From contig NZ_FOTR01000003.1 in assembly GCF_900114645.1 (NCBI RefSeq), forward strand, positions 248,001 to 312,000: DNA of 64,000 nt, given 5' to 3'. The notes under the pieces were generated by a model. That model was given only the letters and a program-made list of their open reading frames with translations, searched no databases and had not been told where the DNA came from. This DNA is from Gracilibacillus orientalis. Its GTDB lineage: Bacteria; Bacillota; Bacilli; Bacillales; Amphibacillaceae. Positions within the stretch are counted from its first letter, which is position 1; every line of letters begins with the position of its first letter. Shown piece by piece: positions 17,554 through 32,474 of the stretch. Position numbers and translations under genes: made by a program.

Positions 17554-18135
17554 TTATTTGTTCATTTTACTTAAGAAATCTCCAAGTATATCATCAAGAT
17601 CTGCTTCTTCTGACTCTACTTCCTCATCCTCAGATTCTCGATTCTCTTTTACAGCTTCCTCCCAATTAATTGAATCTAAATCATCATCCAATGGGTCATG
17701 TTCCTTTTCTATCTCATTTACATCCTGTAAGCCAGCTTCTTTAGGCTCTTCTGGTAATTCTTCCTGTAAATACAGAGCTTCATCAATATCAGTAGAACTA
17801 CTATTAAGTGAGGCTAATAAACCAGTCGCTCTAACCGGGTCATTTAAAAGTTGATATAAGATACTACCTAACAGTGCTTCTGAATGTTCATGTTTAATCC
17901 AATTTCGTTGCGCTTTGTTTAAACTGCCAGGAAGAGGAATCGTAATAGTTTCTCTTTCCTTAGAACTTGTTTCATTGATCCCCTTTAACACCAATTCAGC
18001 CATTCTGCTTGAAAAATTTCGTCGTTCGGTTTCCTTCAGCCGCTGGATTTCCTTTAAAAGGTAATCAGGCGTGTCTGAAGGAATCCGAAAAGAAATTGTC
18101 TGGCCTCTATTGATTTGGTTTGCTGATTTCTTCAT
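17554..18135 (-). CDS. parR: ParR-like DNA-binding adaptor of the ParM filament
   Basis: 193 residues. The N-terminal 60 residues (TISFRIPSDTPDYLLKEIQR, then NFSSRMAELVLKG) look like a ribbon-helix-helix domain. The C-terminal half is strongly acidic and disordered-looking and ends DLDDILGDFLSKMNK, a short amphipathic tail of the kind that contacts ParM in type II systems. It starts 9 bp after the actin-like gene, and its ribosome site overlaps that stop codon. Position, length and architecture support a ParR role; sequence similarity among ParRs is low, so the name rests on context. Confidence 0.78.
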   Translation of the reverse strand: MKKSANQINRGQTISFRIPSDTPDYLLKEIQRLKETERRNFSSRMAELVLKGINETSSKERETITIPLPGSLNKAQRNWIKHEHSEALLGSILYQLLNDPVRATGLLASLNSSSTDIDEALYLQEELPEEPKEAGLQDVNEIEKEHDPLDDDLDSINWEEAVKENRESEDEEVESEEADLDDILGDFLSKMNK

Positions 18136-18144
18136 ATAATCACC

Positions 18145-19308
18145 TTATGACTTTTTCACTGTCTTTTTCTCTTCCTTCAATTTCTCAGTCTTTTTGGTAA
18201 ATTCAGATAGCAGTTTATAGTAAGCGTTGGCCATCATCCAAATGCTTTCCTTGTCATCTTCAAAAAATTCAATATTGAAGCCATCTAAATTATTGTTAAG
18301 TGTTTTGATATACTCTTTTAAAACATTGGAACCTCCACCAACGAAATAACAAATTTCCGTTTGTGAATTTTTTTGCCAGACGTTTCTTAACAAACGATAT
18401 TGTTTTTTCGCTAATTCCATCAAAATCCGATCAGTAATGTCATGAACACTTGTCCGACTCCCTTTTACCATGATGTGATTGCGGTCATTATTTCGTGTAA
18501 TAATTTCGACGACATCACGACGACTGTCCACTTCAACACCATGGTTACTAAAGATTTCCTCACGAATGTTTTCAAGCGACTCGGACACTCCAAGATTAAA
18601 GCCTTGTGCTTTATCATCGTCAACAGTACGGTTCTTAATCACTGCAATATCAGTAGACAAACCACCGATATCTTGAATAAGAATCCGTTTATCGATTAGA
18701 TCCTTATTAATAATTTTCAGGTCATGGTCCATCACTAAGTTAATATAAGCGGCAAAACCTTCGGGATATACCTTAACTTCGTCAAATTTAATATTTACTT
18801 TAATCCCTTGATATTTGGGTGTCACTAAAAACTCTACCTGATGAACCGATCCGAGAAGTTTCGAACGGTACCCTGCATCTTTTCCTTCTTTCACTTCACG
18901 AAGGGGTAACCCTGTTCCTAATGTGTAATTCGCGTCAATTACGTTGTTAGAGCCAGTTTTATTTGCTTTAGCCGCATCTAATGCAATCGATGCAAAAAGC
19001 ATAATTAATGTCTGGTCTTCCTGTGACTTACCGCTTCCTGGATCAAGCTCTGTCGAATTGGTTGACTTCGATGCTAAGTGACCAACACGATAAATCGCAT
19101 TGTTTTCCTGCAGGGCAGGGGAGTGCACGCGAATATGTATGCCTTCCAAAGGATCTTTTTGATCTAATTCCTCAATGCCGATGACCGGGCGATCTTCAAT
19201 ATCTCTGGCAGTAATATTCGGTATGTTGAACTCCTGATCCAACTCTCCAAATATCGCCTTCACTGAATCATTTCCTACATCAACTGCTGCAATTCTTGAT
19301 TGACTCAT
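18145..19308 (-). CDS. parM: ParM/StbA-family actin-like segregation ATPase
   Basis: 387 residues from ATG 19308 (AAAGG 9 bp upstream; an in-frame ATG at 19317 is too close to the site). Actin-fold motifs: phosphate 1 AAVDVGNDSVKA near residue 10, phosphate 2 ILIQDIGGLSTDIAVI, and adenosine motif YFVGGGSNVLKEYI. Such proteins form dynamic filaments that push plasmid copies apart. The gene is followed by a ParR-like gene and preceded by an array of TGTACAC-like repeats, a complete parC-parM-parR layout. No replication gene is in the window. Confidence 0.9.
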   Translation of the reverse strand: MSQSRIAAVDVGNDSVKAIFGELDQEFNIPNITARDIEDRPVIGIEELDQKDPLEGIHIRVHSPALQENNAIYRVGHLASKSTNSTELDPGSGKSQEDQTLIMLFASIALDAAKANKTGSNNVIDANYTLGTGLPLREVKEGKDAGYRSKLLGSVHQVEFLVTPKYQGIKVNIKFDEVKVYPEGFAAYINLVMDHDLKIINKDLIDKRILIQDIGGLSTDIAVIKNRTVDDDKAQGFNLGVSESLENIREEIFSNHGVEVDSRRDVVEIITRNNDRNHIMVKGSRTSVHDITDRILMELAKKQYRLLRNVWQKNSQTEICYFVGGGSNVLKEYIKTLNNNLDGFNIEFFEDDKESIWMMANAYYKLLSEFTKKTEKLKEEKKTVKKS

Positions 19309-19429
19309 TTTTATCATCCTTTGTCATTAAAATCTCTTCTTCTAAAAAGGATATTGCAGATGATAGACTTCATCAATAGCTGACGCCAAAAAAAATACAA
19401 TTGTAACTTAAATGAAATATTTCGTAACA

Positions 19430-19798: not shown

Positions 19799-22700
19799 CT
19801 AATTTTTAAGTAACTGATATACATGATCAGCAACAAGGGGTAAAGAAAAATAAAAGATGGTTCCTTTCTGCTCTTTACTTTCCACCCATAAGCGACCCTT
19901 ATGACATAGAATAATTTCTTCGCTAATGGCAAGGCCTAGTCCATTTCCTTTCACTTTACTCTTCGTGTAATGACGGTCAAATACATAGGGGATATCTGAT
20001 TTCGAAATACCGCTTCCTTCATCTTGAACAGAGAAGATAACTTGATTTGAATCAGAAATAGTTAAGGCTAATTCAATCGTACCTTTATCTGTATGTTTGA
20101 TTGCATTAGAAACTAAATTCGTCATCACCTGTTCCAAACGGATAACGTCTACTTCTACTAACGGATATTCATTGATTGAATCTGTCTCGAATCGTTGATG
20201 AAATTGGAGACCAGCCCGCTGTACCTCTAATGTAAACATATTACAAAAGTGCTCATACAACTGATCGACAGGAATCGCTTCCATCGAAAAATGCATGTTT
20301 CCTGATTCCAATTTGGATAAGTCAAATAAATCTTTAATAAGCTTATTCAAACCGCCCATTCTCTTTTTAATGATAGTTAAATATTCCTTTTGTTTTACAG
20401 AGTCATCCACTAATCCATCTAATAATGCACCGACATACCCCTGAACTACCGCAACTGGCGACTGGAGGTCATGTGATACATTCGAGAGCAAATGTTTCAT
20501 TTTTTCTTTGGAATTGGTCAACTGTTGATTGACCTCTGTTAATTGTTGATTCGTTTCATTTAATAATGCTGTACGTTTACTAACCTTTTCTTCCAAATCA
20601 GCATAAAGATAGGCATTTGCAATCGATACTGCTGCCTGAGATGTAATTAATGTTAAAAAATTTAATCGCTCATGGGTAAAAACGTGTGTGGACTTATTGT
20701 TTTCCATATACAAAATTGCAACCAGTCTATCCTGATTTACAATCGGCAGACACAAGATCGATTTTGCTTGTGTATCTTGAATATAATGATTTTCGGTAAA
20801 TGGACCTTGTTCTGCTGCGTGATCTAACACAACCGCTTCCCTACTATTCACTACATAATGAACGATCGCTGTTGATAGACGCGAATGTTTCTTTAATGGT
20901 TGCAGTTTCTCATATATTTCAACATTGCCATCAATATGATTATAGGATACCAATTCAAGCTTGTTTTCATTAGGTATCAGGAAGGATGCATGCTCTGCAC
21001 CGGCATAGGTTAAGAATATCTCCATTAATCTGCTAATTAATTTATTTAGTATTACTTCACTTGAGATGACTCTAGCTGCCTCAAAAATTGCTTTGGTATC
21101 TAAACTTTCTTTCGTATTAAAGCCAGTTGTAGCACTTTGTTTAATTTGCAACAATAATTCTGGATGCGTTTGCTTTAGATGTTCTGCGATATGCACTGCT
21201 CCCCAATTTACATAACCGTTATATGCTTCTGTCATATAGGATTTCGCTGTTTTAGAAAGCTGTTTTGATAAATAATAGGTTGCAGCACAATGATTGGCGA
21301 TTGCAAAATCTTGAAGAAAACCATTTTCTTCTGCATTTTCTATTGCTTGATGATAATTGCTGACCGCCTCGTTATCATGTCCAGTAAGCTTTTGTTGCTC
21401 AGCAAGAATCAGTAAATACTTATGCAGATAGTTAGTCGGAGAGTGTTTAGCCCATTTTTTTAGTTTTTTTAAATTATTCTTTAACTTTCTATAGCCACTT
21501 TTTCTTGTTACCTCTTCCTCTTCCATTAGCTTAACTAACCATAACGAATGGTAAAAGAAGTATTCCGGTGCAACAACTAACACTAGTGTGTTATCCACGA
21601 GTGGTTCCAACTCCTGCATTAGTGATATTGCTATGGAACGATGATTAAACAAATACGCCAGCTGTAACCGAACGGTCTTATGCATAATAGCCGCGGAGTT
21701 ATCATCGGTGAACTCGGGAAATTCCCAAGTAGGCTGTTTATCAGGTGAAGAAAGCGCAGCAATCCACCCTAACAACTCGCTTAAGAAATCATCGGAAATG
21801 GCATATTCATTTTTTTTAGCAAATGTTAACTGTCTATCGATACCCTCTTTTACCTGTTCCAAGTTATCTCCTTTGATATGTTGCGTCAATCCAATAAATG
21901 CACCAGTAGCACCAGCTAAATGCAAATTGCCTGTTTCGATACAAATCTGCTGGGATTTCTCTAAATATTCTAAACTATAACGAATATGCTTGCTCCAATG
22001 ATTGACAAAAGCTCCAAAAACAAAGTAAACGCGTGCTTGTAATGCAGTATCTCCAGACTTTTTTACATGTTGAATCGCCAGTGTTCCAAATTGATAGCTT
22101 GCTTGATAATCACCAAAGCCAGCACTAAGTGTCAATGCGTAGTTGTTATAAACGAGAGCAGATACATCCATATCACCAAATTTTAATATTAAACGAAGTG
22201 CTCTGAGCATCAGAATCGTTGCTAAATTTTGATCGACATGATAGGTCGGAGCATTTGAATTAATCAGCGTTCGCATAATTAGTCTTTGATTTTCATCTGC
22301 TACAGGTGGAAGTTTTAATAATTCATCACCGCGTTTGTTTCCTAAAGCAATTTTCGTTAAGAGATATTCCTTGGCCACCATCGCTTTATTCGGCTTATCT
22401 TTCATTTCAATACCAAATAATCGTAAGCCAGTGAGTCCAGAATTTGTTGCTTGCGTTACTTCGTGAATATGTGTGTACAACGTTATTTTCAGATTGTAAA
22501 TATACAGCATATCTTGTTTGGTTTTGGCATGTGTCAATGTGTCCTCAAAAATGTCTTCTGCTTCTTCAAAATGTTGGTTAAGGTATAATGACTCTCCATA
22601 CCCCACCATAACAGTATACGTCTCGTCATAATCGCTTTGCCATTTATCCTGAGGCAATAATTGAAAGGCATTCTTATAAAATGTCAATTCAGATTGGAAT

Positions 22701-24994
22701 GCTGCAGCACGCTTTGCCTTTTCCCCTGCCATGCGATTCCATTTGATTAAATCCTTTTGCTGAACGGGAGTTAGTCGAGATTGACAGAGATTCAAATGGT
22801 TCACGATCGAAAATATCTGTTCCTCGATTTCATCCGTTGTATAATGACTAATTAATTGTTCTGCTATCGTTAAATGACTTTGTTCTCGTTCTTCTATAGA
22901 CATCGACGTATAAAATGCCTGTTGAATTTTATCATGTAAAAACCGATAGCTTGGGGGGTTTTCATTTAAAAGCTGTTCATTCTCATTGGGATAGACCCAT
23001 TTATAGCGGGCATCCATCGGCAGTATAACCCCTTCTTCTAACCCGTCCCATAATCGATTAGCAGTAGTTACATAGCTTTCTCCAGCAATAGTTGCCAATA
23101 ATTTAAGATTAAACTGACTGCCAATACAAGCAGCTAGTTGTATAAGTTTCACCGTTTCTGTTGATAACTTATTAATCTGTTTCATAATAAAATCAAGCAT
23201 GGAATCCGTCATTGGAATCTGTTTCAGTGTGGTAAGGTTGATTTGCCACGTCGCTGTACTTAAATCAAAACTTATCATTTTTTCCTGATTCAATAATTGT
23301 AATAATTGAATGATAAAAAAGGGATTCCCTCTGGTAATACGATAAATTAATTCTACTAATGGTTCAGCATCTACCGCTTCAAGAGCAAGGACTTCCTCAA
23401 TCCATTGTTCGATATGATTCTTTGCTAAGGGGTATATAGGAATAGTAGATACGCCTACTTCCGTATGATTTAGTTGGTTTAAAAATAATTCAAACGGATG
23501 ACCAACCGATACTTCATTATCACGATAAGCACCGATGATTAATAAATTTCTTCTGTCTGGATTCGTAAGGAGATGTCGCATTAAATCAAGCGTCGCATTA
23601 TCTGCCCACTGTAAATCATCGATAAACAATACAAGTGGATGATTCTCTGTAGCAAACACTTCAACAAATTTCCTAACCGCTAACATGAAACGGTTATGGA
23701 CTCCTTGTGGAGGTAACTCTGACCCTTCTACCTGCTTGCCAATCAACCATTCAATTTCAGGAATGAAGTTAGCGATCACCCAAGCATTATTTGCCAATGA
23801 CAGGTTTAATTTCTCTTTCCAGGTTTGAATACTGTCTGTATCTTCCGTTAAGATTTGCCTTATTAACGATCGAAAGGCTCCAATAATAGGTGCGTAAGGA
23901 ATATGCTTCTGAAATTGCACAAACTTACCCGTAATAAAATACCCTTGTTTACTTAGTAATGGTTTATGGAGCTTATTGACCAAGGCAGTCTTACCAATGC
24001 CTGACGGGCCAGGAAGAAGCACAAGTGATGGTGCACCATGCTGGATATGCTCAAACTTACTAATAAGCTGCTCCAGTTCATTGTTTCTCCCATAAAGCTT
24101 ATTTGGCTTTTCAAGCATAGGGCTTGCGTCATGTTCTCCTAATGAAAATAATTCTGTGCCATTATTTGCATAAAAAGCATGAGAACATTTTTCTAAATCT
24201 TTTTTTAACCCGTATGTACTTTGATACCTTTGTTCAGGCATTTTAGAAAGTAACTTCATAATGATATTGGATATTATTTTAGGAATCGATGGATTTACTT
24301 CATGAGGGGGATTTGCTGTTTGTGCAAGATGTGCATGAATAACTTCAACTGGGTCCCTCATTGTAAATGGAACACGACCAGTGACTATTTGATAGAACAG
24401 AATACCTAATGAATATAAATCGGTACGGTAATCAATGGGACGATTCATTCTACCCGTTTGCTCTGGTGATACATAGCTAACTTCTTCTATCTGATATGGT
24501 GTTATATCGGCTTGTGGCATTTCTTTAGAGAGCATAGTTGATTGCTGAAAGCCTGTTAATTTTATATGATCCGTATTGGGATCATATAAAATATGATCTG
24601 GTTGAATCGATTTATGAATAATATTTTTTTGATGAACCGACGCAAGAATCGATGTTAATTTAATGGCGATCTTTAAAAATGTGCTGATATCAAATACCTG
24701 ATTACTTCTTAACCAGTTTGTTAATGGTTGCCCTTCAAAAAACTCCATCATTAAATAAGGTTGTTCCTTACTTTTTTCCAAGGCAACCGGCTTCAGAACG
24801 CCATAAAGATCTGCGTCACATAACGTATAATACTCATGAATTAATTCAGCTTTGGATTGAGGATGTGCTTTATTATGAAGAGTCTTTATCAAAGCTTGTT
24901 CATGGTTGAGGCTCGAAACGGCTTTATATAACACCCATGAGTTAGAAGCAATAATCGTTTCAGTTAGTTGATAATTCGACAATTTTTTCATCAT
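19799..24994 (-). CDS. Giant sensor protein: kinase-like domain, AAA ATPase, helical repeats, GAF and histidine kinase
   Basis: 1731 residues. Domains in order: protein-kinase-like fold (about 1-275), AAA-type ATPase with P-loop GPSGIGKT at 329-336 and LVLFIDDLQWADN, a long helical TPR-like region (about 750-1280), GAF domain (about 1290-1445), coiled coil, then HisKA with SHDLQSP (His1508) and HATPase boxes (NLVSNAIKH, DEGSGIS, GNGLGLAI). This is the known trifunctional kinase/ATPase/histidine kinase layout. Here the kinase HRD motif is HKS (127-129, catalytic Asp replaced by Ser) and DFG is TGF (147-149), so the first domain is probably a pseudokinase, while the histidine kinase looks active. 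The nearby response regulator is the likely partner. Confidence 0.93.
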   Translation of the reverse strand: MMKKLSNYQLTETIIASNSWVLYKAVSSLNHEQALIKTLHNKAHPQSKAELIHEYYTLCDADLYGVLKPVALEKSKEQPYLMMEFFEGQPLTNWLRSNQVFDISTFLKIAIKLTSILASVHQKNIIHKSIQPDHILYDPNTDHIKLTGFQQSTMLSKEMPQADITPYQIEEVSYVSPEQTGRMNRPIDYRTDLYSLGILFYQIVTGRVPFTMRDPVEVIHAHLAQTANPPHEVNPSIPKIISNIIMKLLSKMPEQRYQSTYGLKKDLEKCSHAFYANNGTELFSLGEHDASPMLEKPNKLYGRNNELEQLISKFEHIQHGAPSLVLLPGPSGIGKTALVNKLHKPLLSKQGYFITGKFVQFQKHIPYAPIIGAFRSLIRQILTEDTDSIQTWKEKLNLSLANNAWVIANFIPEIEWLIGKQVEGSELPPQGVHNRFMLAVRKFVEVFATENHPLVLFIDDLQWADNATLDLMRHLLTNPDRRNLLIIGAYRDNEVSVGHPFELFLNQLNHTEVGVSTIPIYPLAKNHIEQWIEEVLALEAVDAEPLVELIYRITRGNPFFIIQLLQLLNQEKMISFDLSTATWQINLTTLKQIPMTDSMLDFIMKQINKLSTETVKLIQLAACIGSQFNLKLLATIAGESYVTTANRLWDGLEEGVILPMDARYKWVYPNENEQLLNENPPSYRFLHDKIQQAFYTSMSIEEREQSHLTIAEQLISHYTTDEIEEQIFSIVNHLNLCQSRLTPVQQKDLIKWNRMAGEKAKRAAAFQSELTFYKNAFQLLPQDKWQSDYDETYTVMVGYGESLYLNQHFEEAEDIFEDTLTHAKTKQDMLYIYNLKITLYTHIHEVTQATNSGLTGLRLFGIEMKDKPNKAMVAKEYLLTKIALGNKRGDELLKLPPVADENQRLIMRTLINSNAPTYHVDQNLATILMLRALRLILKFGDMDVSALVYNNYALTLSAGFGDYQASYQFGTLAIQHVKKSGDTALQARVYFVFGAFVNHWSKHIRYSLEYLEKSQQICIETGNLHLAGATGAFIGLTQHIKGDNLEQVKEGIDRQLTFAKKNEYAISDDFLSELLGWIAALSSPDKQPTWEFPEFTDDNSAAIMHKTVRLQLAYLFNHRSIAISLMQELEPLVDNTLVLVVAPEYFFYHSLWLVKLMEEEEVTRKSGYRKLKNNLKKLKKWAKHSPTNYLHKYLLILAEQQKLTGHDNEAVSNYHQAIENAEENGFLQDFAIANHCAATYYLSKQLSKTAKSYMTEAYNGYVNWGAVHIAEHLKQTHPELLLQIKQSATTGFNTKESLDTKAIFEAARVISSEVILNKLISRLMEIFLTYAGAEHASFLIPNENKLELVSYNHIDGNVEIYEKLQPLKKHSRLSTAIVHYVVNSREAVVLDHAAEQGPFTENHYIQDTQAKSILCLPIVNQDRLVAILYMENNKSTHVFTHERLNFLTLITSQAAVSIANAYLYADLEEKVSKRTALLNETNQQLTEVNQQLTNSKEKMKHLLSNVSHDLQSPVAVVQGYVGALLDGLVDDSVKQKEYLTIIKKRMGGLNKLIKDLFDLSKLESGNMHFSMEAIPVDQLYEHFCNMFTLEVQRAGLQFHQRFETDSINEYPLVEVDVIRLEQVMTNLVSNAIKHTDKGTIELALTISDSNQVIFSVQDEGSGISKSDIPYVFDRHYTKSKVKGNGLGLAISEEIILCHKGRLWVESKEQKGTIFYFSLPLVADHVYQLLKN

Positions 24995-25015
24995 CTATCA
25001 TCCTAATTTTCAAAA

Positions 25016-25070
25016 TTTTAAGTTAATTTTAACCAAATTTTAACTCTTTTTTAAACTCTTTTCTTATACT
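25016..25070 (+). promoter_or_regulatory. 11-bp-phased TTTTAA repeats and -10 box between the giant kinase and sinI-like genes
   Basis: TTTTAA occurs at 25016, 25027, 25038 and 25049, each exactly 11 bp after the last, with a degenerate fifth repeat (TTTTCT) near 25059. A TATACT -10 lies at 25065-25070, 32 bp before the sinI-like ATG. Direct repeats at 11-bp spacing next to a -10 are the standard layout for OmpR/PhoB/PhoP-type regulators. The OmpR-type regulator encoded next door is the obvious candidate (inference). Confidence 0.7.
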
Positions 25071-25101
25071 TTTCATGACGATCAAAAAGGGGGAAATACG
25101 T

Positions 25102-25245
25102 ATGTTAGACTCCATGAAACAAAATCACAGTAAAGAACAGGAATTAGATAAGGAATGGTTAATTTTATTGACCATCGCAAAACAAAAAGGAATCACCGTT
25201 CAACAAGTGAGAAAATTTTTAAAAGAAAAGAAGATTATCGATTAA
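25102..25245 (+). CDS. SinI-family anti-repressor-like protein, 47 residues
   Basis: ATG 25102 follows AAAAAGGGGG. The 47-residue product contains KEQELDKEWLILLTIAKQKG followed by ITVQQVRKFLKEKK, which fits the SinI dimerisation domain (ELDxEW, AK, RKxL pattern as in B. subtilis SinI). SinI binds SinR-type repressors and frees biofilm and other genes. No SinR-like gene is in the window, so its partner would be elsewhere. Its last 11 bp overlap the 3' end of the convergent response regulator. The TTTTAA boxes upstream suggest control by that regulator. Confidence 0.8.
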   Translation: MLDSMKQNHSKEQELDKEWLILLTIAKQKGITVQQVRKFLKEKKIID

Positions 25246-25999
25246 GGTGATTCGTAAAATCACTTTGTTCATTCGTTTGTTCTTCGATTCTATTAAATTT
25301 ATAACCAATCCCGCGCACCGTTTCGATATACTTAGGTTGATTAGAATTTGTGTCTAATTTTTTTCTTAAATTGCTGATATGTACCATAACTGTCCGATAA
25401 TCTCCTAAACTATTTTCATCCCAGATTAACTCAAACAATTTCTCTACACTAAAAATTCTTTCAGGATTCTGCGCTAACAAACATAGGATTTGAAACTCCT
25501 TTGCTGATAAATGTAATGTTTGATTATTTAATTTTACAACAGCACTGTCAAGATTAATTACTAATCCGGGGTATTCAATCATACTAGATTTTTTTTCAGA
25601 GATTCCATTTTGTTTGTTTTGTTGGGACAGCTTCCTATACCGGCGTAAATGTGCCTTTATTTTAGCTATTAATACTGGTGAACTGGTCGTTTTTTCAATA
25701 AAATCATCTCCGCCAACACCCAGCCCCAAAATTTTATCCATATCATCTTGTTTGGAACTTAGGAAAATAATAGGTATATCTATTATTTTTTTTATTTCCT
25801 GACAAAGCTCGAAGCCGTCCAACCTAGGCATTATTACATCTAAAATGATTAAATCTGGTGATTCCTTCTCTACCATTGTTAACGCAGCTACTCCATCTTC
25901 TGCCGCCAAAACTTGATAGCCATTTTCTTTTAAGTATAATTCTAGTATTGTACGCATATCCGCATCATCATCAACTATTAAAATTTTTTCGCTAGCCAA
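25235..25999 (-). CDS. OmpR-family response regulator
   Basis: 254 residues. Receiver domain with acidic pocket DDD at 10-12 and phosphoacceptor Asp54 (LIILDVIMPRLDG). The C-terminal winged helix has LSAKEFQILCLLAQNPERIF and VMVHISNLRKKLD with YIETVRGIGYKF. The usual Lys-Pro after the receiver fifth strand reads KTTSS here: Lys kept, cis-Pro lost, so signalling geometry may differ. It lies upstream of the giant sensor kinase in the same direction, with the sinI-like gene between them on the other strand. Confidence 0.92.
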   Translation of the reverse strand: MASEKILIVDDDADMRTILELYLKENGYQVLAAEDGVAALTMVEKESPDLIILDVIMPRLDGFELCQEIKKIIDIPIIFLSSKQDDMDKILGLGVGGDDFIEKTTSSPVLIAKIKAHLRRYRKLSQQNKQNGISEKKSSMIEYPGLVINLDSAVVKLNNQTLHLSAKEFQILCLLAQNPERIFSVEKLFELIWDENSLGDYRTVMVHISNLRKKLDTNSNQPKYIETVRGIGYKFNRIEEQTNEQSDFTNHLNR

Positions 26000-26203
26000 C
26001 GCCTTTCCCCCTTTCTTAAACTTTCATCCGCGCGTTAATACTTTTTTCTCAACAATTGGGTATATACTTAACGTTACTTTTGGGTAATATAAACTATCTT
26101 CAAATGTGGTACTTTTATATTAGTATACCAAAGGTTTTACACAGGACAACAATAAGAAATATATTTTTTTCCAATATTTCGATTATATATTGGGAGAATT
26201 CTA

Positions 26204-26282
26204 CTAACTAGTTAAACACCTAACTAGAAAAGATATTTAATTTCTAAAGTAAAACCTTTAACTTTTGTGGTTAAAGGTTTAC
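26204..26282. other. Direct repeats and hairpin in the gap before the xylanase
   Basis: CTAACTAG occurs at 26204-26211 and 26220-26227. An 11-bp stem (26252-26262 with 26270-26280, 7-nt loop) follows. There is no T-run on the plus strand. The remainder of 26000-26381 is A/T-rich with no gene; function unknown. Confidence 0.45.
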
Positions 26283-26329
26283 TAGTAACAAGCTAAAATG
26301 ATAGATGGAAAGGAGGTTAATCACAAATT

Positions 26330-26346
26330 TGTAAGCGTTTTATAAT
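26330..26346 (+). promoter_or_regulatory. Candidate cre site and -10 of the xylanase gene
   Basis: TGTAAGCGTTTTAT (26330-26343) differs from the Bacillus cre consensus TGWAARCGYTWNCW at one position. It overlaps a TATAAT (26341-26346), so CcpA binding would block transcription. The -35 is not convincing. Confidence 0.55.
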
Positions 26347-26381
26347 TTGGAGCTAATTTTATTTATGGAGGAATACAAAAT

Positions 26382-29300
26382 ATGAACAGGCATTTTAAAA
26401 GAATTATTTCATTATTTCTTATAGCGATTTTGGTCATTCCATCAGGCTGGATTACACCGGCTAAAGAAGCAGCAACGAACGAAGATATGCCAGTTCTTCT
26501 GTATCATCGAGTTGTTGAAAATCCTTCCAATCAATGGACAGACACCAGTATTGAAAACTTTGAACAGACCATGAAGTATCTCCATGACAATGGATATAAC
26601 ACTTTATCCGCAGAACAATATGTCAGTATCATGGAAGGAACGGAAACAGCTCCTGAAAATCCTATTCTATTAACCTTTGATGATGCTACTCCTGATTTTA
26701 TCACCAATGCGCTCCCTGTCTTAGAAAAGTATGACATGCATGCTGTTCAATTTGTGATCACCGATTGGATTGGTACTGATTACAGTATGTCAGAAGAACA
26801 GCTGAAAAATTTAGCAGACCATCCAAATGTCAGTCTGCAAAATCACTCCAACACACACAGCGATGAAACTTGGGGAAATGATGGCAGTCAGAGAAGTGAA
26901 ATAACAAAAGAACAAGCTGAGGAAGAAATTACTCAAGCTAATACGTATTTAAGTGATATTACAGGTGAAAACCCCATTCTCATGGCTTATCCTTATGGCA
27001 GCTACAATGATGCGGCAAAAGAGGTAAACAAAGAAAATGGAATCCAATACGCATTTAAGGTTGGAACACCTGACGAAGACGAATATGCTATGAGTCGTCA
27101 TTATGTAGTAATGGACACGACGCTAGAAGATATTGCAGGATGGATCGGCGGTCCAGTACCCGATCCTGAAACAGAAACAGAAGACGAATCAGAGGCGAAT
27201 ACTGTTTATCATGAAACCTTTGAAGATGGATTAGGTGTTGTAACACAAGCAGGGAACGCACAATTGGATCCTGTTTCTGAAATCGTATTTGAAGGTAATG
27301 AAGATGGAAATGCGATCCATGTAAGCGAGAGAAGCAATAACTGGGATGGGGTTAACCTTCCATTCAGCAACGTCGGCATGGAAGATGGAAAAACCTATAC
27401 AATTACCATTACAGGTTATGTAGATGACAATGTAACGATTCCAGAAGGGTCTCAAGCATTGCTTCAAAATGTTGACAGCTATAACGGACTGTATGCAGCT
27501 GCTGAATTAGTGGAGGGGCAATCTTTTACTTTATCTGGAGAATATACCGTTAATACAAGTGAAGACAATGCTTTACGAATCCAATCTAATGATGACGGGC
27601 AAACTATTCCATTCTATATCGGGGGTATTCTCATTATCGAAGAGAGGGCTTCAGAAGACGATGATGAAGAAGAACAAGAGGAGCCAAGACAACCTGCTGA
27701 AGATTTCACTACCATTACATTTGAAGACCAAACAACAGGTGGGTTTGAACCTAGAGGTGATTCGGAAACACTTACTGTAACCGATGAAGAAAATCATACA
27801 GAAAATGGTTCTCATGCTTTAAAAGTGGCGGAAAGATCAGAGAATTGGCATGGACCATCATTGCGTGTCGAGCAATATGTCGACCAAGGGCAAGAATATA
27901 AAATTTCTGCACGGGTTAAGCTGATCTCATCGGAAAGTTCACAGCTTCAGCTATCAACACAGGTCGGTGAAGGTGACAGTGCTAATTACAATAACCTGCA
28001 AGGAAAAACGATTAGTACGGAAGATGGCTGGGTACAACTCGAAGGAACGTATCGTTACAGTAGTGTGGGTGGCGAATATTTAGCCATTTATGTAGAAAGT
28101 TCAAATAATAGTACGGCTTCTTTCTATATTGATGATGTAACTTTTGAGCCTACCGATTCGGGAGAAGTTGAAATCGAGAAAGATTTGACTCCAATAAAAG
28201 ATGTGTATGCAGACTATTTTTTAATTGGAAATGCAGTCTCCAATGCCGAATTTGAAGGTACCAGACTGGAGCTTCTTAACATGCATCACAACCTTGTGAC
28301 AGCGGAGAATGCGATGAAACCAGGTTATGCATATAATGATGACAGAGAATTTGATTTTACTGCCGAAGATGCACTTGTCGAACAAGCTTCAAAGCAAGGG
28401 TTACAATTACATGGCCACGTACTAGTTTGGCACCAACAGTCAGATGAATGGCTACATTCTGATGAAAATGGTAATCCTTTAAGTCGGGAAGAAGCGCTTG
28501 AAAACTTGCGAAACCATGTTAAAACAACAATAGAGCATTTCGGGCCAAATGTGATTTCCTGGGATGTGGTCAATGAAGCGATGATTGATAACCCGCCAAA
28601 TCCAGCTGATTGGAAAGCATCCTTACGTCAATCAGGCTGGTACCAAGCTATCGGACCTGATTACGTAGAACAGTCCTTCCGTGCAGCAAAAGAGGTAATA
28701 GATGAAAACGGCTGGGATATTAGCCTTTATTATAATGATTACAATGATGATAATCAGAACAAAGCAGAAGCCATGTATCAAATGGTAAAAGAAATTAATG
28801 AGAACTACGCAACAGATAATGATGGTGAACTGTTAGTTGACGGTATCGGCATGCAAGGACACTATAATTTAAACACCAATCCTGAAAATGTAAGACGATC
28901 CATGGAGAAGTTTATCTCTCTTGGTGTGGAAGTTGGTGTAACAGAGCTTGATATTACAGCTGGTAGCGATAATGAACTTACGGAGCAGCAAGCAAATGCG
29001 CAAGGTTATTTATATGCCCAATTGTTCCAGCTTTATAAAGAACATGCTGACCATATCTCTCGTGTAACATTCTGGGGTCTGAATGATGCGACGAGCTGGC
29101 GAGCAGAGCAAAGCCCATTATTGTTTAATAAAGACTTGCAAGCGAAACCGGCTTACAATGCTGTAATCGACCCTGATACATTTATAGAAGAACACGAACT
29201 TGAGGAGACAGAAGCAAATCATTCTACAGCTTCGTTCGGGACTCCGGAAATCGATGGAGCAATAGATAATGTTTGGAGCGATGTGCCAGCATTACCGATT

Positions 29301-30548
29301 AACCGTTATCAGATGGCTTGGCAAGGAGCAGACGGAACAGCCAAGGCTCTGTGGGATGACGAAAACCTTTATGTCTTGATTCAGGTAAGTGACTCTAATC
29401 TTGACGATACCAACGAAAATGCATGGGAACAGGATTCCATTGAAGTCTTTGTCGATGAAAATAATGGAAAAACAGCTTCCTATCAAGACGATGATGGACA
29501 ATACAGAGTGAATTTTAATAATGAAACGTCCTTCAACCCTGAAAGCATTGCTGATGGATTCGATTCAGCCACTCATGTTTCAGATAATGGTTACACTGTA
29601 GAAGTGAAGATTCCATTTAAAACCATTACTCCAGAAGATGGCACAGAAATTGGCTTTGACGTACAAATTAATGATGCAAAAGATGGTGCCCGTGAAAGTG
29701 CTGCAACATGGAACGACACAACTGGCGCTGGCTATCAGGATACATCCGTATTTGGTATTTTAACACTTGAAGGTTCAGCAGACTCAACACCTGAACCGGA
29801 AGAACCTCAACCTGAAGATCCAGATTCCAAAGAACCAACACCTGAAAAACCAAAACAAGTCGTAACAAAACCAGTAGTGAAAAATAAACAAGCAACTATG
29901 AAAGATGATGACATCGATAAATTAGAAAAAGAAGACGAATTAGTCATTAATCTAAGAAATCATGACTCTTCCATCACCGTTTCATTTACTAGCGATCAAG
30001 TGAAACAGTTGAAGCAGCAAAACGCTACAATCACGATTAATATGAAAGATGTTAGCATTCAATTGCCTGCATCCGTATTTTCAAATGGGAATCAAGCGGT
30101 AGATATTGAAATTCAAAAAATGAAAGATATGGATGGGGCTTTAAGTGCTGTCTATGACTTTATCATTATGCAAGGTGACAAAGAAATCCGTCAGTTTGAT
30201 TCGAAAGTTGCCCTTTCATTTAAAGTCGATAAAGATAAAGTAAAAGATTCTAACAATGTAAAATTGTTCTACTGGAATCCGGATGCGGAGACATGGGAAC
30301 TCATCGGTGGAGAATACCAAAATGGGGTTGTTACAGCCGAAACTGGCCATTTCAGCACATTTGCGGTATTTGAGACAGAAAAAGTGGAAGAATCCAAGGC
30401 AGATCCAGTAAATCATGTTGATGAAGAAAATAAATTGCCTGATACAGCAACAAGTACATTCAATTATTTACTAGCAGGATTAATGATACTACTTATTGGT
30501 GCTGTCTTCCTCCTACTTATTAAAAGAAAAAAGTCTAGCTTGCTGTAA
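26382..30548 (+). CDS. Cell-wall-anchored multidomain xylanase (CE4, two CBM22, GH10, CBM9, LPXTG)
   Basis: 1388 residues. Signal peptide to about residue 28; NodB-type polysaccharide deacetylase (about 36-260) with Asp100-Asp101 in TFDDAT and His155/His159 in HSNTH; two CBM22-like domains (about 272-421 and 441-590); GH10 endo-xylanase (about 602-931) with acid/base Glu732 (WDVVNEAM) and nucleophile Glu855 (VTELDI); CBM9-like domain (about 948-1131); Pro/Glu linker; a beta-rich domain (about 1163-1341); sortase motif LPDTA at 1352-1356, a hydrophobic helix and KRKK tail. It should de-acetylate and cut xylan while fixed to the wall. GGAGGA precedes the ATG. No sortase gene is in the window. 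Confidence 0.95.
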   Translation: MNRHFKRIISLFLIAILVIPSGWITPAKEAATNEDMPVLLYHRVVENPSNQWTDTSIENFEQTMKYLHDNGYNTLSAEQYVSIMEGTETAPENPILLTFDDATPDFITNALPVLEKYDMHAVQFVITDWIGTDYSMSEEQLKNLADHPNVSLQNHSNTHSDETWGNDGSQRSEITKEQAEEEITQANTYLSDITGENPILMAYPYGSYNDAAKEVNKENGIQYAFKVGTPDEDEYAMSRHYVVMDTTLEDIAGWIGGPVPDPETETEDESEANTVYHETFEDGLGVVTQAGNAQLDPVSEIVFEGNEDGNAIHVSERSNNWDGVNLPFSNVGMEDGKTYTITITGYVDDNVTIPEGSQALLQNVDSYNGLYAAAELVEGQSFTLSGEYTVNTSEDNALRIQSNDDGQTIPFYIGGILIIEERASEDDDEEEQEEPRQPAEDFTTITFEDQTTGGFEPRGDSETLTVTDEENHTENGSHALKVAERSENWHGPSLRVEQYVDQGQEYKISARVKLISSESSQLQLSTQVGEGDSANYNNLQGKTISTEDGWVQLEGTYRYSSVGGEYLAIYVESSNNSTASFYIDDVTFEPTDSGEVEIEKDLTPIKDVYADYFLIGNAVSNAEFEGTRLELLNMHHNLVTAENAMKPGYAYNDDREFDFTAEDALVEQASKQGLQLHGHVLVWHQQSDEWLHSDENGNPLSREEALENLRNHVKTTIEHFGPNVISWDVVNEAMIDNPPNPADWKASLRQSGWYQAIGPDYVEQSFRAAKEVIDENGWDISLYYNDYNDDNQNKAEAMYQMVKEINENYATDNDGELLVDGIGMQGHYNLNTNPENVRRSMEKFISLGVEVGVTELDITAGSDNELTEQQANAQGYLYAQLFQLYKEHADHISRVTFWGLNDATSWRAEQSPLLFNKDLQAKPAYNAVIDPDTFIEEHELEETEANHSTASFGTPEIDGAIDNVWSDVPALPINRYQMAWQGADGTAKALWDDENLYVLIQVSDSNLDDTNENAWEQDSIEVFVDENNGKTASYQDDDGQYRVNFNNETSFNPESIADGFDSATHVSDNGYTVEVKIPFKTITPEDGTEIGFDVQINDAKDGARESAATWNDTTGAGYQDTSVFGILTLEGSADSTPEPEEPQPEDPDSKEPTPEKPKQVVTKPVVKNKQATMKDDDIDKLEKEDELVINLRNHDSSITVSFTSDQVKQLKQQNATITINMKDVSIQLPASVFSNGNQAVDIEIQKMKDMDGALSAVYDFIIMQGDKEIRQFDSKVALSFKVDKDKVKDSNNVKLFYWNPDAETWELIGGEYQNGVVTAETGHFSTFAVFETEKVEESKADPVNHVDEENKLPDTATSTFNYLLAGLMILLIGAVFLLLIKRKKSSLL

Positions 30549-30555
30549 CGTAAAT

Positions 30556-30587
30556 AAAGAGACTGATAGCACTTCGTCAGTCTCTTT
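30556..30587 (+). terminator. Terminator of the xylanase gene
   Basis: AAAGAGACTGA and TCAGTCTCTTT pair over a 10-nt loop and run into TTTTTT, 8 bp after the stop codon. Confidence 0.93.
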
Positions 30588-30703
30588 TTTACGTCTCTGT
30601 CATTGTAAATCAAACGTGATTTTTATTTACACTTGAGATTTACTATCAACTCTGTGCTCTTCTCTATCAATTTCATTGATAGTTGATATTACATTCTTAT
30701 TTT

Positions 30704-30744
30704 GGTAACATTTATGAAAACGAATTCATAACCTTCATGTTACC
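30704..30744. promoter_or_regulatory. Nested palindromes upstream of the GH30 gene
   Basis: GGTAACAT (30704-30711) pairs with ATGTTACC (30737-30744), and inside it TTATGAA (30712-30718) pairs with TTCATAA (30725-30731). The core TGAAAACGAATTCA (30715-30728) has the central CG and TGAA/TTCA halves of LacI-family operators and partly resembles cre. A sugar-responsive repressor site is plausible but not proven. Confidence 0.4.
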
Positions 30745-30872
30745 CTCTTTCCCGAACTAATTATGCATAGATAAGAACAGATTGGCTATTCACTTGAAAG
30801 TGGTGGTAATTAATTAAAACTACTCCGTATTCAAGAAAAAATTCAGATTGAAGAAAGGAGAATACAATACCA

Positions 30873-32474
30873 ATGAATAAGAAATTAAAACTAACCTTAG
30901 CATTATCGCTTAGTGTTCTATTGCTTGGATCACCGGTTAGTTATGCAAAGGAAAATAACTTAGCAGTTCCCCAGAATAGCACTGCCCAAGAAATTAATAT
31001 CGACGTAGAAAGTAAGTTTCAGGAAATTGATGGATTCGGAGCTTCTGGTGCTTGGTCCATGGATCCAGTTGGCAGTGAATGGTCGGAAGAAAATAAAAAC
31101 CTTGTTGCTGATTTGTTATTCTCACAGGATAAAGGAATTGGTTTATCCATGTGGCGCTTTAATATCGGTGCAGGTAGTGAAATGACAGACAAGGAAATCA
31201 TTACAGATCGTTTTAGAAGAGCAGAAAGTTTTAAAACAGGAGAAAAGGAGGATTATGATTGGTCTAAACAAGCTGGTCAGCAGTGGTTTCTTCAAGCAGC
31301 AAAAGAACGCGGAGTTGAGGAATTTATTGCATTTGTAAATAGTCCACCCGTTTGGATGACGAAGAATGGACATGGACAACCAGACCCCTCTGTTGGTAGC
31401 ACAAATCTAGAAGAAGAACATATGGATGATTTTGCAATATTTTTAGCTGATGTATTAGAGCATTTCGAACAAGAGCAGTTGCCTTTTAACTATATTAGTC
31501 CGATCAATGAGCCTACATGGGATTGGAACTATGCAGGACAAGAAGGAAATCGTTACAATATAGACGATATGAAAGAGGTTATCACAGCTTTACATAATGA
31601 GCTGGAAAACCGAGGACTTGAAACCGAAATTGACGCACCAGAAGCGGTAGAATATACATCACTTCTTGATGATGATATATATGCTGAATTTACAGGAAGT
31701 GATAGCAGATATAGCGGTGGCAATGCTAGTGGTGCTTATCCGGGTAAATATCGAGAATATATCAAGGAATTTTTAGGAGATAGTGATATAAAAGAAATGG
31801 TCGGTAATAAGGTTAGTACACACGCCTATTGGTCTGATCATTATTCTGGTGAAGACCGTCTAATTCCATTAAGAGAATCTGTACGGGAAAACATAGATCG
31901 ATATGATAAGGACGCAAAAATATGGATGTCCGAATACTGTATTTTGGGAGATCACGGGCATGGCAGAGACCTCTCCATGGAGACTGCACTAGATGTTGCC
32001 CGACTCATTCATAATGACATGGTGGAAACACAAGCTTCCGCATGGCAATGGTGGTTAGCGATGTCACCTTATGATTACAAGGACGGATTGATCTATACAG
32101 ATTACTCCGAACAGGGTGATGAACAAACAATCATTGAATCTAAGTTACTATGGGCTTTAGGTAACTACAGCCGTTTCGTTAGACCGGGAGCCTACAGAGT
32201 TGATCTTCAGGGTGCCAACGATAAGAACGGTCTTATGGGCTCTGCTTATTATCAAGAAGACGATGACCAGCTCGCTATTGTACTTGTCAATCATAGTGAT
32301 GAAACAAAACCAGTAAATATTAATGTAGATGATCTACCTGGAAACAAGAAAACCATACAATTTAAACCATATGTAACTTCTGAAAACAATGACCTGGAAG
32401 AAAAAAACTTATTCCCCGGACATAAAACGTTTCATGTTCCAGCAAAATCGGTAGTTACATTAGTTGCTCAATAA
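30873..32474 (+). CDS. Secreted glycoside hydrolase family 30 enzyme
   Basis: 533 residues with a signal peptide ending near VSYA (residue 25). The catalytic domain begins FQEIDGFGASGAWSMDPVG and shows acid/base Glu213 (SPINEPTW) and nucleophile Glu354 (IWMSEYCILGD), as expected for GH30. A beta-sandwich side domain finishes the chain (ALGNYSRFVRPGAYRVD onward). Family members act on xylan, beta-1,6-galactan or glucan, and the subfamily cannot be fixed by eye; the neighbouring xylanase makes a hemicellulose substrate likely. GAAAGGAG precedes the ATG. Confidence 0.88.
   Translation: MNKKLKLTLALSLSVLLLGSPVSYAKENNLAVPQNSTAQEINIDVESKFQEIDGFGASGAWSMDPVGSEWSEENKNLVADLLFSQDKGIGLSMWRFNIGAGSEMTDKEIITDRFRRAESFKTGEKEDYDWSKQAGQQWFLQAAKERGVEEFIAFVNSPPVWMTKNGHGQPDPSVGSTNLEEEHMDDFAIFLADVLEHFEQEQLPFNYISPINEPTWDWNYAGQEGNRYNIDDMKEVITALHNELENRGLETEIDAPEAVEYTSLLDDDIYAEFTGSDSRYSGGNASGAYPGKYREYIKEFLGDSDIKEMVGNKVSTHAYWSDHYSGEDRLIPLRESVRENIDRYDKDAKIWMSEYCILGDHGHGRDLSMETALDVARLIHNDMVETQASAWQWWLAMSPYDYKDGLIYTDYSEQGDEQTIIESKLLWALGNYSRFVRPGAYRVDLQGANDKNGLMGSAYYQEDDDQLAIVLVNHSDETKPVNINVDDLPGNKKTIQFKPYVTSENNDLEEKNLFPGHKTFHVPAKSVVTLVAQ

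Follow-up and report, generated by a model that had tools for sequence, protein, structure and literature searches.

In Bacillus subtilis, sinI is under the control of Spo0A, and SinI binds SinR and relieves the repression of yqxM-sipW-tasA (PMC3163267, in the portion consulted). In this best-studied case, Spo0A-run sinI ties matrix production to the sporulation phosphorelay. What, then, drives a sinI-like gene that lies in Gracilibacillus orientalis between a giant sensor kinase gene and the gene of an OmpR-type response regulator? The original prediction was that four perfect TTTTAA boxes at 11-bp steps and a -10 element form an OmpR/PhoP-type activation layout in this gap, and that the two-component system has an antirepressor as its output. 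We analyzed the locus in a window of 64 kb, by which we mean the whole stretch of DNA studied. The features of the locus are the following, the four boxes being read from the window sequence and compared in 24 loci.

19799-24994, minus strand: sensor kinase gene, 1731 aa, with Pfam domains as given below
25016-25022, plus strand: box 1, TTTTAAG
25027-25033, plus strand: box 2, TTTTAAC
25038-25044, plus strand: box 3, TTTTAAC
25049-25055, plus strand: box 4, TTTTAAA, between the would-be -35 position and the -10
25065-25070, plus strand: predicted -10, TATACT, 9 nt 3' of box 4, with no good -35
25089-25093, plus strand: likely ribosome-binding site of sinI, GGGGG, from the sequence
25102-25245, plus strand: SinI-like antirepressor gene, 47 aa, Pfam SinI 32.3 bits against a cut-off of 31.4 (8.1e-8)
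25235-25999, minus strand: OmpR/PhoB-family response regulator gene, 254 aa, with receiver and winged-helix Trans_reg_C domains (Pfam 98.2 and 96.6 bits)

The box array in the window

The product of the sinI-like gene is short, has no helix-turn-helix domain and matches Pfam SinI above the cut-off and no other family. Its best matches among solved structures are SinI 5tmx and 1b0n (phmmer). On the NCBIfam equivalog model for Bacillus SinI it scores 33 bits and does not reach the cut-off of 80. The sinI and regulator genes overlap tail to tail by 11 bp (25235-25245), and the kinase gene is head to head with sinI. The sole terminator-like site found in 24800-26400 is on the plus strand at 25642-25655; because it sits inside the regulator gene, sinI transcripts may extend antisense to the mRNA of the regulator.

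Four TTTTAA hexamers at 11-bp steps are present on the plus strand exactly where they had been predicted, at 25016, 25027, 25038 and 25049, and TATACT occupies the position claimed for the -10. The placement of the array also agrees, with the sinI-like gene on one side, the kinase gene on the other, and the OmpR/PhoB-type regulator as the neighbor of sinI. A promoter scan returned no plus-strand -35/-10 pair at the predicted -10 of sinI, whose predicted transcription start is near 25077. The pattern TTTTAA-N5-TTTTAA occurs three times in the window, all within the array, in comparison to a mean of 0.20 in the shuffled window, where three occurrences were reached in 0 of 100 shuffles. In the 4.6-Mb genome, the array is the only site of TTTAA-N6-TTTAA-N6-TTTAA, as two overlapping matches. 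The same pattern read backwards as a control also gives two matches in this genome, so the genome-wide rarity of the three-TTTAA pattern alone proves little. A chance origin of the array was rejected on the shuffles together with the comparison of 24 loci and the 76 control SinI genes described below.

Other open reading frames flank the locus. To the left of the kinase gene, at 17554-19317, there is a ParM/actin-like frame with a 193-aa neighbor (both by eye), resembling a plasmid-type partition pair; the ParM-like frame is kept in three other triad genomes (G002, G009 and G015). At 26382-32474 there are two large secreted-enzyme frames, apparently a deacetylase + xylanase and a glucuronoxylanase-like enzyme (by eye), the first of which is also found beside the regulator gene in the same three genomes.

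Conservation and specificity of the array

Orthologues of the regulator were collected in two sets, 13 of 61 genomes searched (at least 245 bits) and 15 of 397 genomes of the order (E ≤ 1e-70). Since four genomes are common to both sets, these yield 24 distinct loci from ten families in which regulator, SinI-like and giant-kinase genes form a triad, one in each of 24 genomes of the order. The SinI-like frame adjoins the regulator gene on the opposite strand in 24 of 24 loci (the scripted motif missed it in L015, L054 and L063, in which it was recognized by eye), and the kinase gene is placed beyond it in all of them, in 13 via the gene layout and in the other 11 via match coordinates. In the assembly of G001 both the regulator and the kinase are broken into several frames, as is the kinase in G033. 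A match to the sensor N-terminus at 350 bits or more was found in exactly those 15 of the 397 genomes that have a regulator orthologue. A kinase search of named genomes found one close relative, in Gracilibacillus boraciitolerans JCM 21714, and one far kinase match. Nineteen of the 24 triad SinI genes match Pfam SinI at E ≤ 0.001; the five without a match at this threshold (G002, G009, G011, G015 and G016) were assigned by likeness and position.

We scored each locus for four TTTAA cores at 11-bp steps, 20 positions in all, in the 125 bp before the SinI start. The 24 triad loci score 15-20 out of 20, with a mean of 17.4, compared to means of 14.8 at a spacing of 10 bp, 14.5 at 12 bp and 12.7-12.8 at 8, 9, 13 and 14 bp. 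The original prediction had staked itself on the 11-bp spacing in relatives, and there the spacing is held: it is strictly the best among 8-14 bp in 22 of 24 loci, while L055 is tied and L012 prefers 10 bp with 11 bp second. Against 300 dinucleotide shuffles per locus, p is at most 0.013 in 23 of 24 loci and 0.14 in L012, which is a weak fit. The box sequence has to be restated. The window does carry four perfect TTTTAA boxes, but at the positions where it has TTTTAAC, several distant families carry CTTTAAC, CTTTAGC or CTTATAC, with variable spacers. The conserved motif is thus nearer [CT]TTTAA[CG] with a TTTAA core, and perfect TTTTAA is only its local version.

The -10 element keeps its phase with the array. 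A TANNNT hexamer with a 9-nt gap after the last 7-mer is found in 22 of 24 loci, and the next commonest phase in 11, mostly through a hexamer two bases further along. If only the best match per locus is counted, with ties shared, the 9-nt-gap phase accounts for 18.5 of 24. In the two misses (L005 and L054) the hexamer is one base off, the scan register being one base from the by-eye register of close relatives. Three loci (L012, L013 and L015) show the phase one box further on, as if a fifth box were present, and in L059 and L060 an out-of-phase TATAGT matches better than the in-phase hexamer. The layout of four 11-bp steps and 9 nt gives a candidate binding rule, predictive for a subgroup of OmpR-type regulators.

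The array was compared with the promoters of 76 short SinI matches outside the triad, with open frames below 90 aa (the 76-aa frame of G001 was counted as SinR). These score 8-15 (15 once and 14 twice), versus 15-20 for the triad (Mann-Whitney p 5e-14), the start codon being not placeable by a ribosome-binding site in 8 of the 76. The first 38 controls alone score 8-13, and comparison of the triad with these, using one mean per family, gives p 5e-7. Other SinI paralogues are present in these genomes, and those of triad genomes are among the 8-15 scorers. The window's own genome has a third SinI-domain gene (L003, 1465-1599, 44 aa), which has no array and scores 10. Absolute exclusivity of the array to the triad was dropped, as 1 of the 76 controls reaches the triad minimum of 15. 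This highest-scoring control (L256, G013:C4:946026-946536, 15 out of 20) is a SinI gene of a Gracilibacillus without the triad.

The boxes could in principle be phased A/T tracts that bend DNA, since they are AT-rich and recur at 11 bp, near the helical repeat, instead of a site for a protein. We regard this as very improbable, because the distant boxes read CTTTAAC, CTTTAGC and CTTATAC with variable spacers and a fixed -10 phase, and other SinI promoters score lower. A protein-binding array in front of sinI remains the preferred reading.

We also scanned nine triad-bearing Gracilibacillus genomes for three boxes plus a -10, allowing up to three mismatches. The sinI promoter has the fewest mismatches genome-wide in 9 of 9, tied in G001 and G011, and the scan of the nine genomes found no second target besides sinI. 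The totals are 101 matches versus 148 for the reversed pattern; a wider regulon is unsupported by these numbers, and only sinI stood out. Autoregulation was considered and set aside: the 300 bp upstream of the regulator gene, a longer stretch than that used for sinI and unreliable in L057 and L016 (match displaced or partial), score 10-15 on its own strand and up to 16 on the other, near background.

The regulator and the direction of the array

The window regulator has both the phospho-acceptor aspartate and the conserved lysine. The aspartate is kept in the 22 triad rows readable there, and the lysine is replaced by arginine in three (L062-L064). The putative recognition helix of the window regulator, RTVMVHISNLRKKL, is nearly invariant in 23 readable triad rows (L057 dropped, L016 C-terminal only), also where the overall identity is no more than 51-56%. 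The same helix except for the last residue is found in L017, a regulator of G045 that belongs to no triad and is 45% identical, so the helix is not exclusive to this circuit. In three Gracilibacillus loci, a 7TM-PAS-GGDEF gene (diguanylate cyclase-like) lies directly upstream of the regulator gene (L038 8047-9579, L040 1144-2721 and L041 8000-9586; by Pfam for the first two and by likeness for L041), which is in keeping with a surface or biofilm role.

The repeats, the 11-bp spacing and the -10 phase uphold the OmpR-type layout that had been predicted, but the closest printed parallel in the parts of the literature available to us is the streptococcal CiaR site and not a PhoP site. CiaR sites read TTTAAG-N5-TTTAAG, and the search pattern used for them put the -10 ten after the last TTTAAG (PMC3091779, in part), compared with nine after the 7-mer here. 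TTTAA-type direct repeats at 11 bp are common to our array, to CiaR (PMC3091779) and to BAS0540 (PMC4938410), as far as the excerpts of these papers describe them. The CiaR recognition helix, VVEVYVSKVRKKL, resembles that of the triad regulator (VVEVYVSKVRKKL against TVMVHISNLRKKL). The systems differ in that there are four boxes here rather than two, the kinase is different, and one target was found here versus 15 promoters for CiaR in the excerpted text. The G at the sixth position in the CiaR definition, NTTAAG-N5-TTTAAG, is mostly C or A in the window boxes.

Another OmpR-type regulator (PhoP, WalR or one that is CiaR-like) might therefore bind the array, the neighboring regulator having other targets. 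The near identity of the array to the CiaR and BAS0540 motif TTTAAG-N5-TTTAAG (from partial text) speaks for this, as do the many OmpR-family regulators encoded by the genome (44 matches scored) and the occurrence of the putative recognition helix in L017. We nevertheless judge it quite unlikely. Lower scores are seen at SinI genes that are not part of a triad, paralogues in triad genomes among them; the genome scans single out the sinI promoter alone; and the sixth-position G needed by CiaR, in the part of PMC3091779 consulted, is missing from three of the four boxes. The neighboring regulator is the favored candidate for binding the array.

Which of the two divergent genes the array serves is a separate matter. 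Opposite-strand boxes score almost as high, and because TTTAA is nearly its own reverse complement the box scores give no direction, which rests on the -10 phase and on the short distance from array to kinase gene. On the kinase side, TANNNT phases are scattered across the 24 loci. In 20 of 24 loci, some 15-48 nt separate the array from a candidate kinase start, which is a tight fit for a kinase-side promoter; the distance is longer in L056-L058, at about 87-90 nt, and in L013, at about 415 nt. From the -10 phase we infer that the array points at sinI.

The array may instead belong to the divergent kinase gene or serve both genes, in which case sinI would be activated while the kinase promoter or read-through is blocked, building in negative feedback. 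The window has minus-strand promoter-like pairs inside the array (e.g. 25055-25026), a candidate kinase start is close in most loci, and the TTTAA core is near-palindromic. On the other side, there is no conserved kinase-side -10 phase, and promoter-like matches in the region number 12 against 8.3 in shuffles (sd 2.9), only slightly above. We consider this doubtful as a whole, though it is possible that the same binding by the regulator could repress the kinase promoter. Activation of sinI is the reading that we carry forward.

SinR, the giant sensor and the proposed circuit

The original prediction linked the locus to SinR-type control, and the genome contains candidate parts for such a link. 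It encodes a SinR-like protein of 108 aa with HTH_3 and SinI domains on contig C16, while sinI is on C13; sinI is thus unlinked from sinR here, unlike in B. subtilis, where the two genes adjoin. The SinR contig also carries, about 29 kb from the SinR gene, a tasA operon that includes a gene resembling a signal peptidase by eye. Three exact SinR boxes, GTTCTYT (consensus from PMC3163267, in part), are found within 254 bp before tasA, with a chance of 2.5e-4 at the rate of the window.

Of the 24 triad genomes, 23 contain a SinI-domain frame of SinR size, at least 100 aa (the HTH check covered the SinR of the window's own genome); in G001 the best SinI-domain match is in a frame of only 76 aa. 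In the 61-genome set, such frames are found in 12 of 13 triad genomes versus 27 of 48 others, a modest excess (p 0.02, with kinship ignored). TasA family members occur in 15 of 24 triad genomes and in 7 of the 9 Gracilibacillus. SinR boxes are 7.8 times denser in the 300 bp upstream of 20 tasA-family loci than elsewhere (31 in 6,000 bp versus 43 in 64,926 bp). Within these 300 bp, two to four SinR boxes precede a tasA-family locus in every one of the seven Gracilibacillus genomes, and a single box precedes a second G015 locus; SinR boxes are absent there from 8 of the 20 loci.

The circuit could be as proposed and the small protein still have a different target from SinR, perhaps some other SinI-domain protein, there being several of these per genome and the G001 match lying in such a short frame. 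This appears unlikely to us, as the SinI motif can be aligned to the SinI chains in 1b0n and 5tmx, the window's own genome has an HTH_3 + SinI-domain protein, and SinR-sized frames are so widespread in triad genomes. SinR is the preferred target.

Ser/Thr kinase competence involves the catalytic aspartate of HRD and the metal-binding aspartate of DFG. The sensor has the following domains, in residues of the protein.

22-261: protein-kinase-like domain
299-487: AAA_16/STAND ATPase
1126-1249: TPR_CHK1-like region, Pfam match just below the cut-off
1318-1458: GAF
1500-1565: HisKA
1616-1720: HATPase_c

The first 13 loci include 11 intact kinases, all of which lack the HRD aspartate (HKS, HKA, HQR or HKN) and have TGF in place of DFG, so that the Ser/Thr protein-kinase domain looks dead. 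The same 11 proteins retain Walker A and B in the ATPase as well as the H, N and G boxes in the histidine kinase. The N-terminal protein kinase, middle GAF and C-terminal histidine kinase recall the cyanobacterial HstK-type dual kinases (PMC2176072, in part), and fungal CHK1 has the same domain order (PMC9069115, in part); the TPR_CHK1 match of the sensor is just below the Pfam cut-off. Unlike in HstK and CHK1, both the HRD and the DFG aspartate are missing from all 11 intact copies of the sensor here, which also has a STAND-type ATPase and a genomic link to SinI.

The N-terminal 485 aa of the sensor match 27 of 397 genomes at 1e-30. Of seven other long relatives of the sensor (200-301 bits), five lie near SinI genes. 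In three genomes of one genus (G041, G086 and G151), a SinI gene is about 3-4 kb from the sensor gene and preceded by the gene of a NarL/LuxR-type regulator. In G121, sinI and a SinR-like frame are within about 1.5 kb of the sensor relative, again with a NarL/LuxR-type regulator. HisKA_3 and the LuxR-type regulator were checked by Pfam in G041 and G121 and assigned by likeness in G086 and G151. The G139 sensor has a LuxR-type HTH at its C-terminus in place of the kinase, and sinI lies directly after it, no more than about 130 bp away. In G105 and G072, no SinI gene was found near the sensor relative by the motif used within the stretches read. These distant relatives near sinI or sinR are loci L218-L221, L224 and L225. 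By chance, roughly 1-3% of genomes would have such a SinI neighbor within a stretch of 15 kb; this is an estimate, not a computed test, and takes positive genomes to have mostly 2-7 SinI-domain matches and a size of 3-5 Mb. We give about even chances to the idea that this sensory chassis is an input to SinI/SinR across Bacillales, wired to SinI via three outputs: HisKA with an OmpR-type regulator on the 11-bp array (24 loci), HisKA_3 with a NarL/LuxR-type regulator near sinI or sinR (G041, G086, G151 and G121), and a fused LuxR-type HTH followed by sinI (G139).

In the proposed circuit, the giant sensor, with its dead protein-kinase-like domain, STAND ATPase, TPR-like region and GAF domain, would control its own C-terminal histidine kinase, which would phosphorylate the neighboring OmpR/PhoB-type regulator. 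Dimers of the regulator would line up on the four 7-bp boxes, at 11-bp steps and on the same side of the double helix. The bound regulator, its last box 9 nt upstream of a -10 that has no good -35, would recruit RNA polymerase to sinI. The SinI-SinR heterodimer would take SinR off DNA and release SinR-repressed genes, of which tasA is the best candidate, so that matrix genes would be turned on. Judging from the sequence comparisons, it is probable that the two-component system is dedicated to this circuit, with a SinI-type antirepressor as its main transcriptional output and the release of SinR-repressed genes as the result. The antirepressor output foreseen in the original prediction is supported by the association of the array with the triad and by the -10 phase, which points to sinI.

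As in the Spo0A-sinI-SinR pathway of B. subtilis (PMC3163267, in part), a response regulator is predicted to turn on sinI, and GTTCTYT is found at tasA. The differences are the dedicated OmpR/PhoB-type regulator and giant kinase beside sinI, in place of Spo0A and the phosphorelay, and the 11-bp box array of the sinI promoter. Our best reading is that a CiaR/PhoB-type two-component system inducing SinI would take the place of the Spo0A input of B. subtilis. We found no description of an OmpR-type regulator or a giant kinase driving sinI in the open-licence literature (titles, abstract openings and top-ranked matches), which is weak evidence of absence. If the three-output idea is true, the same class of sensor would feed the biofilm decision without Spo0A. 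The module is compact, comprising a sensor, a regulator, one promoter and one 47-aa effector, and it suggests a possible role for a class of giant STAND/GAF histidine kinases. If this dedicated and apparently single-target system acts on sinI, scattered Bacillales would have a separate signal input to the same matrix switch.
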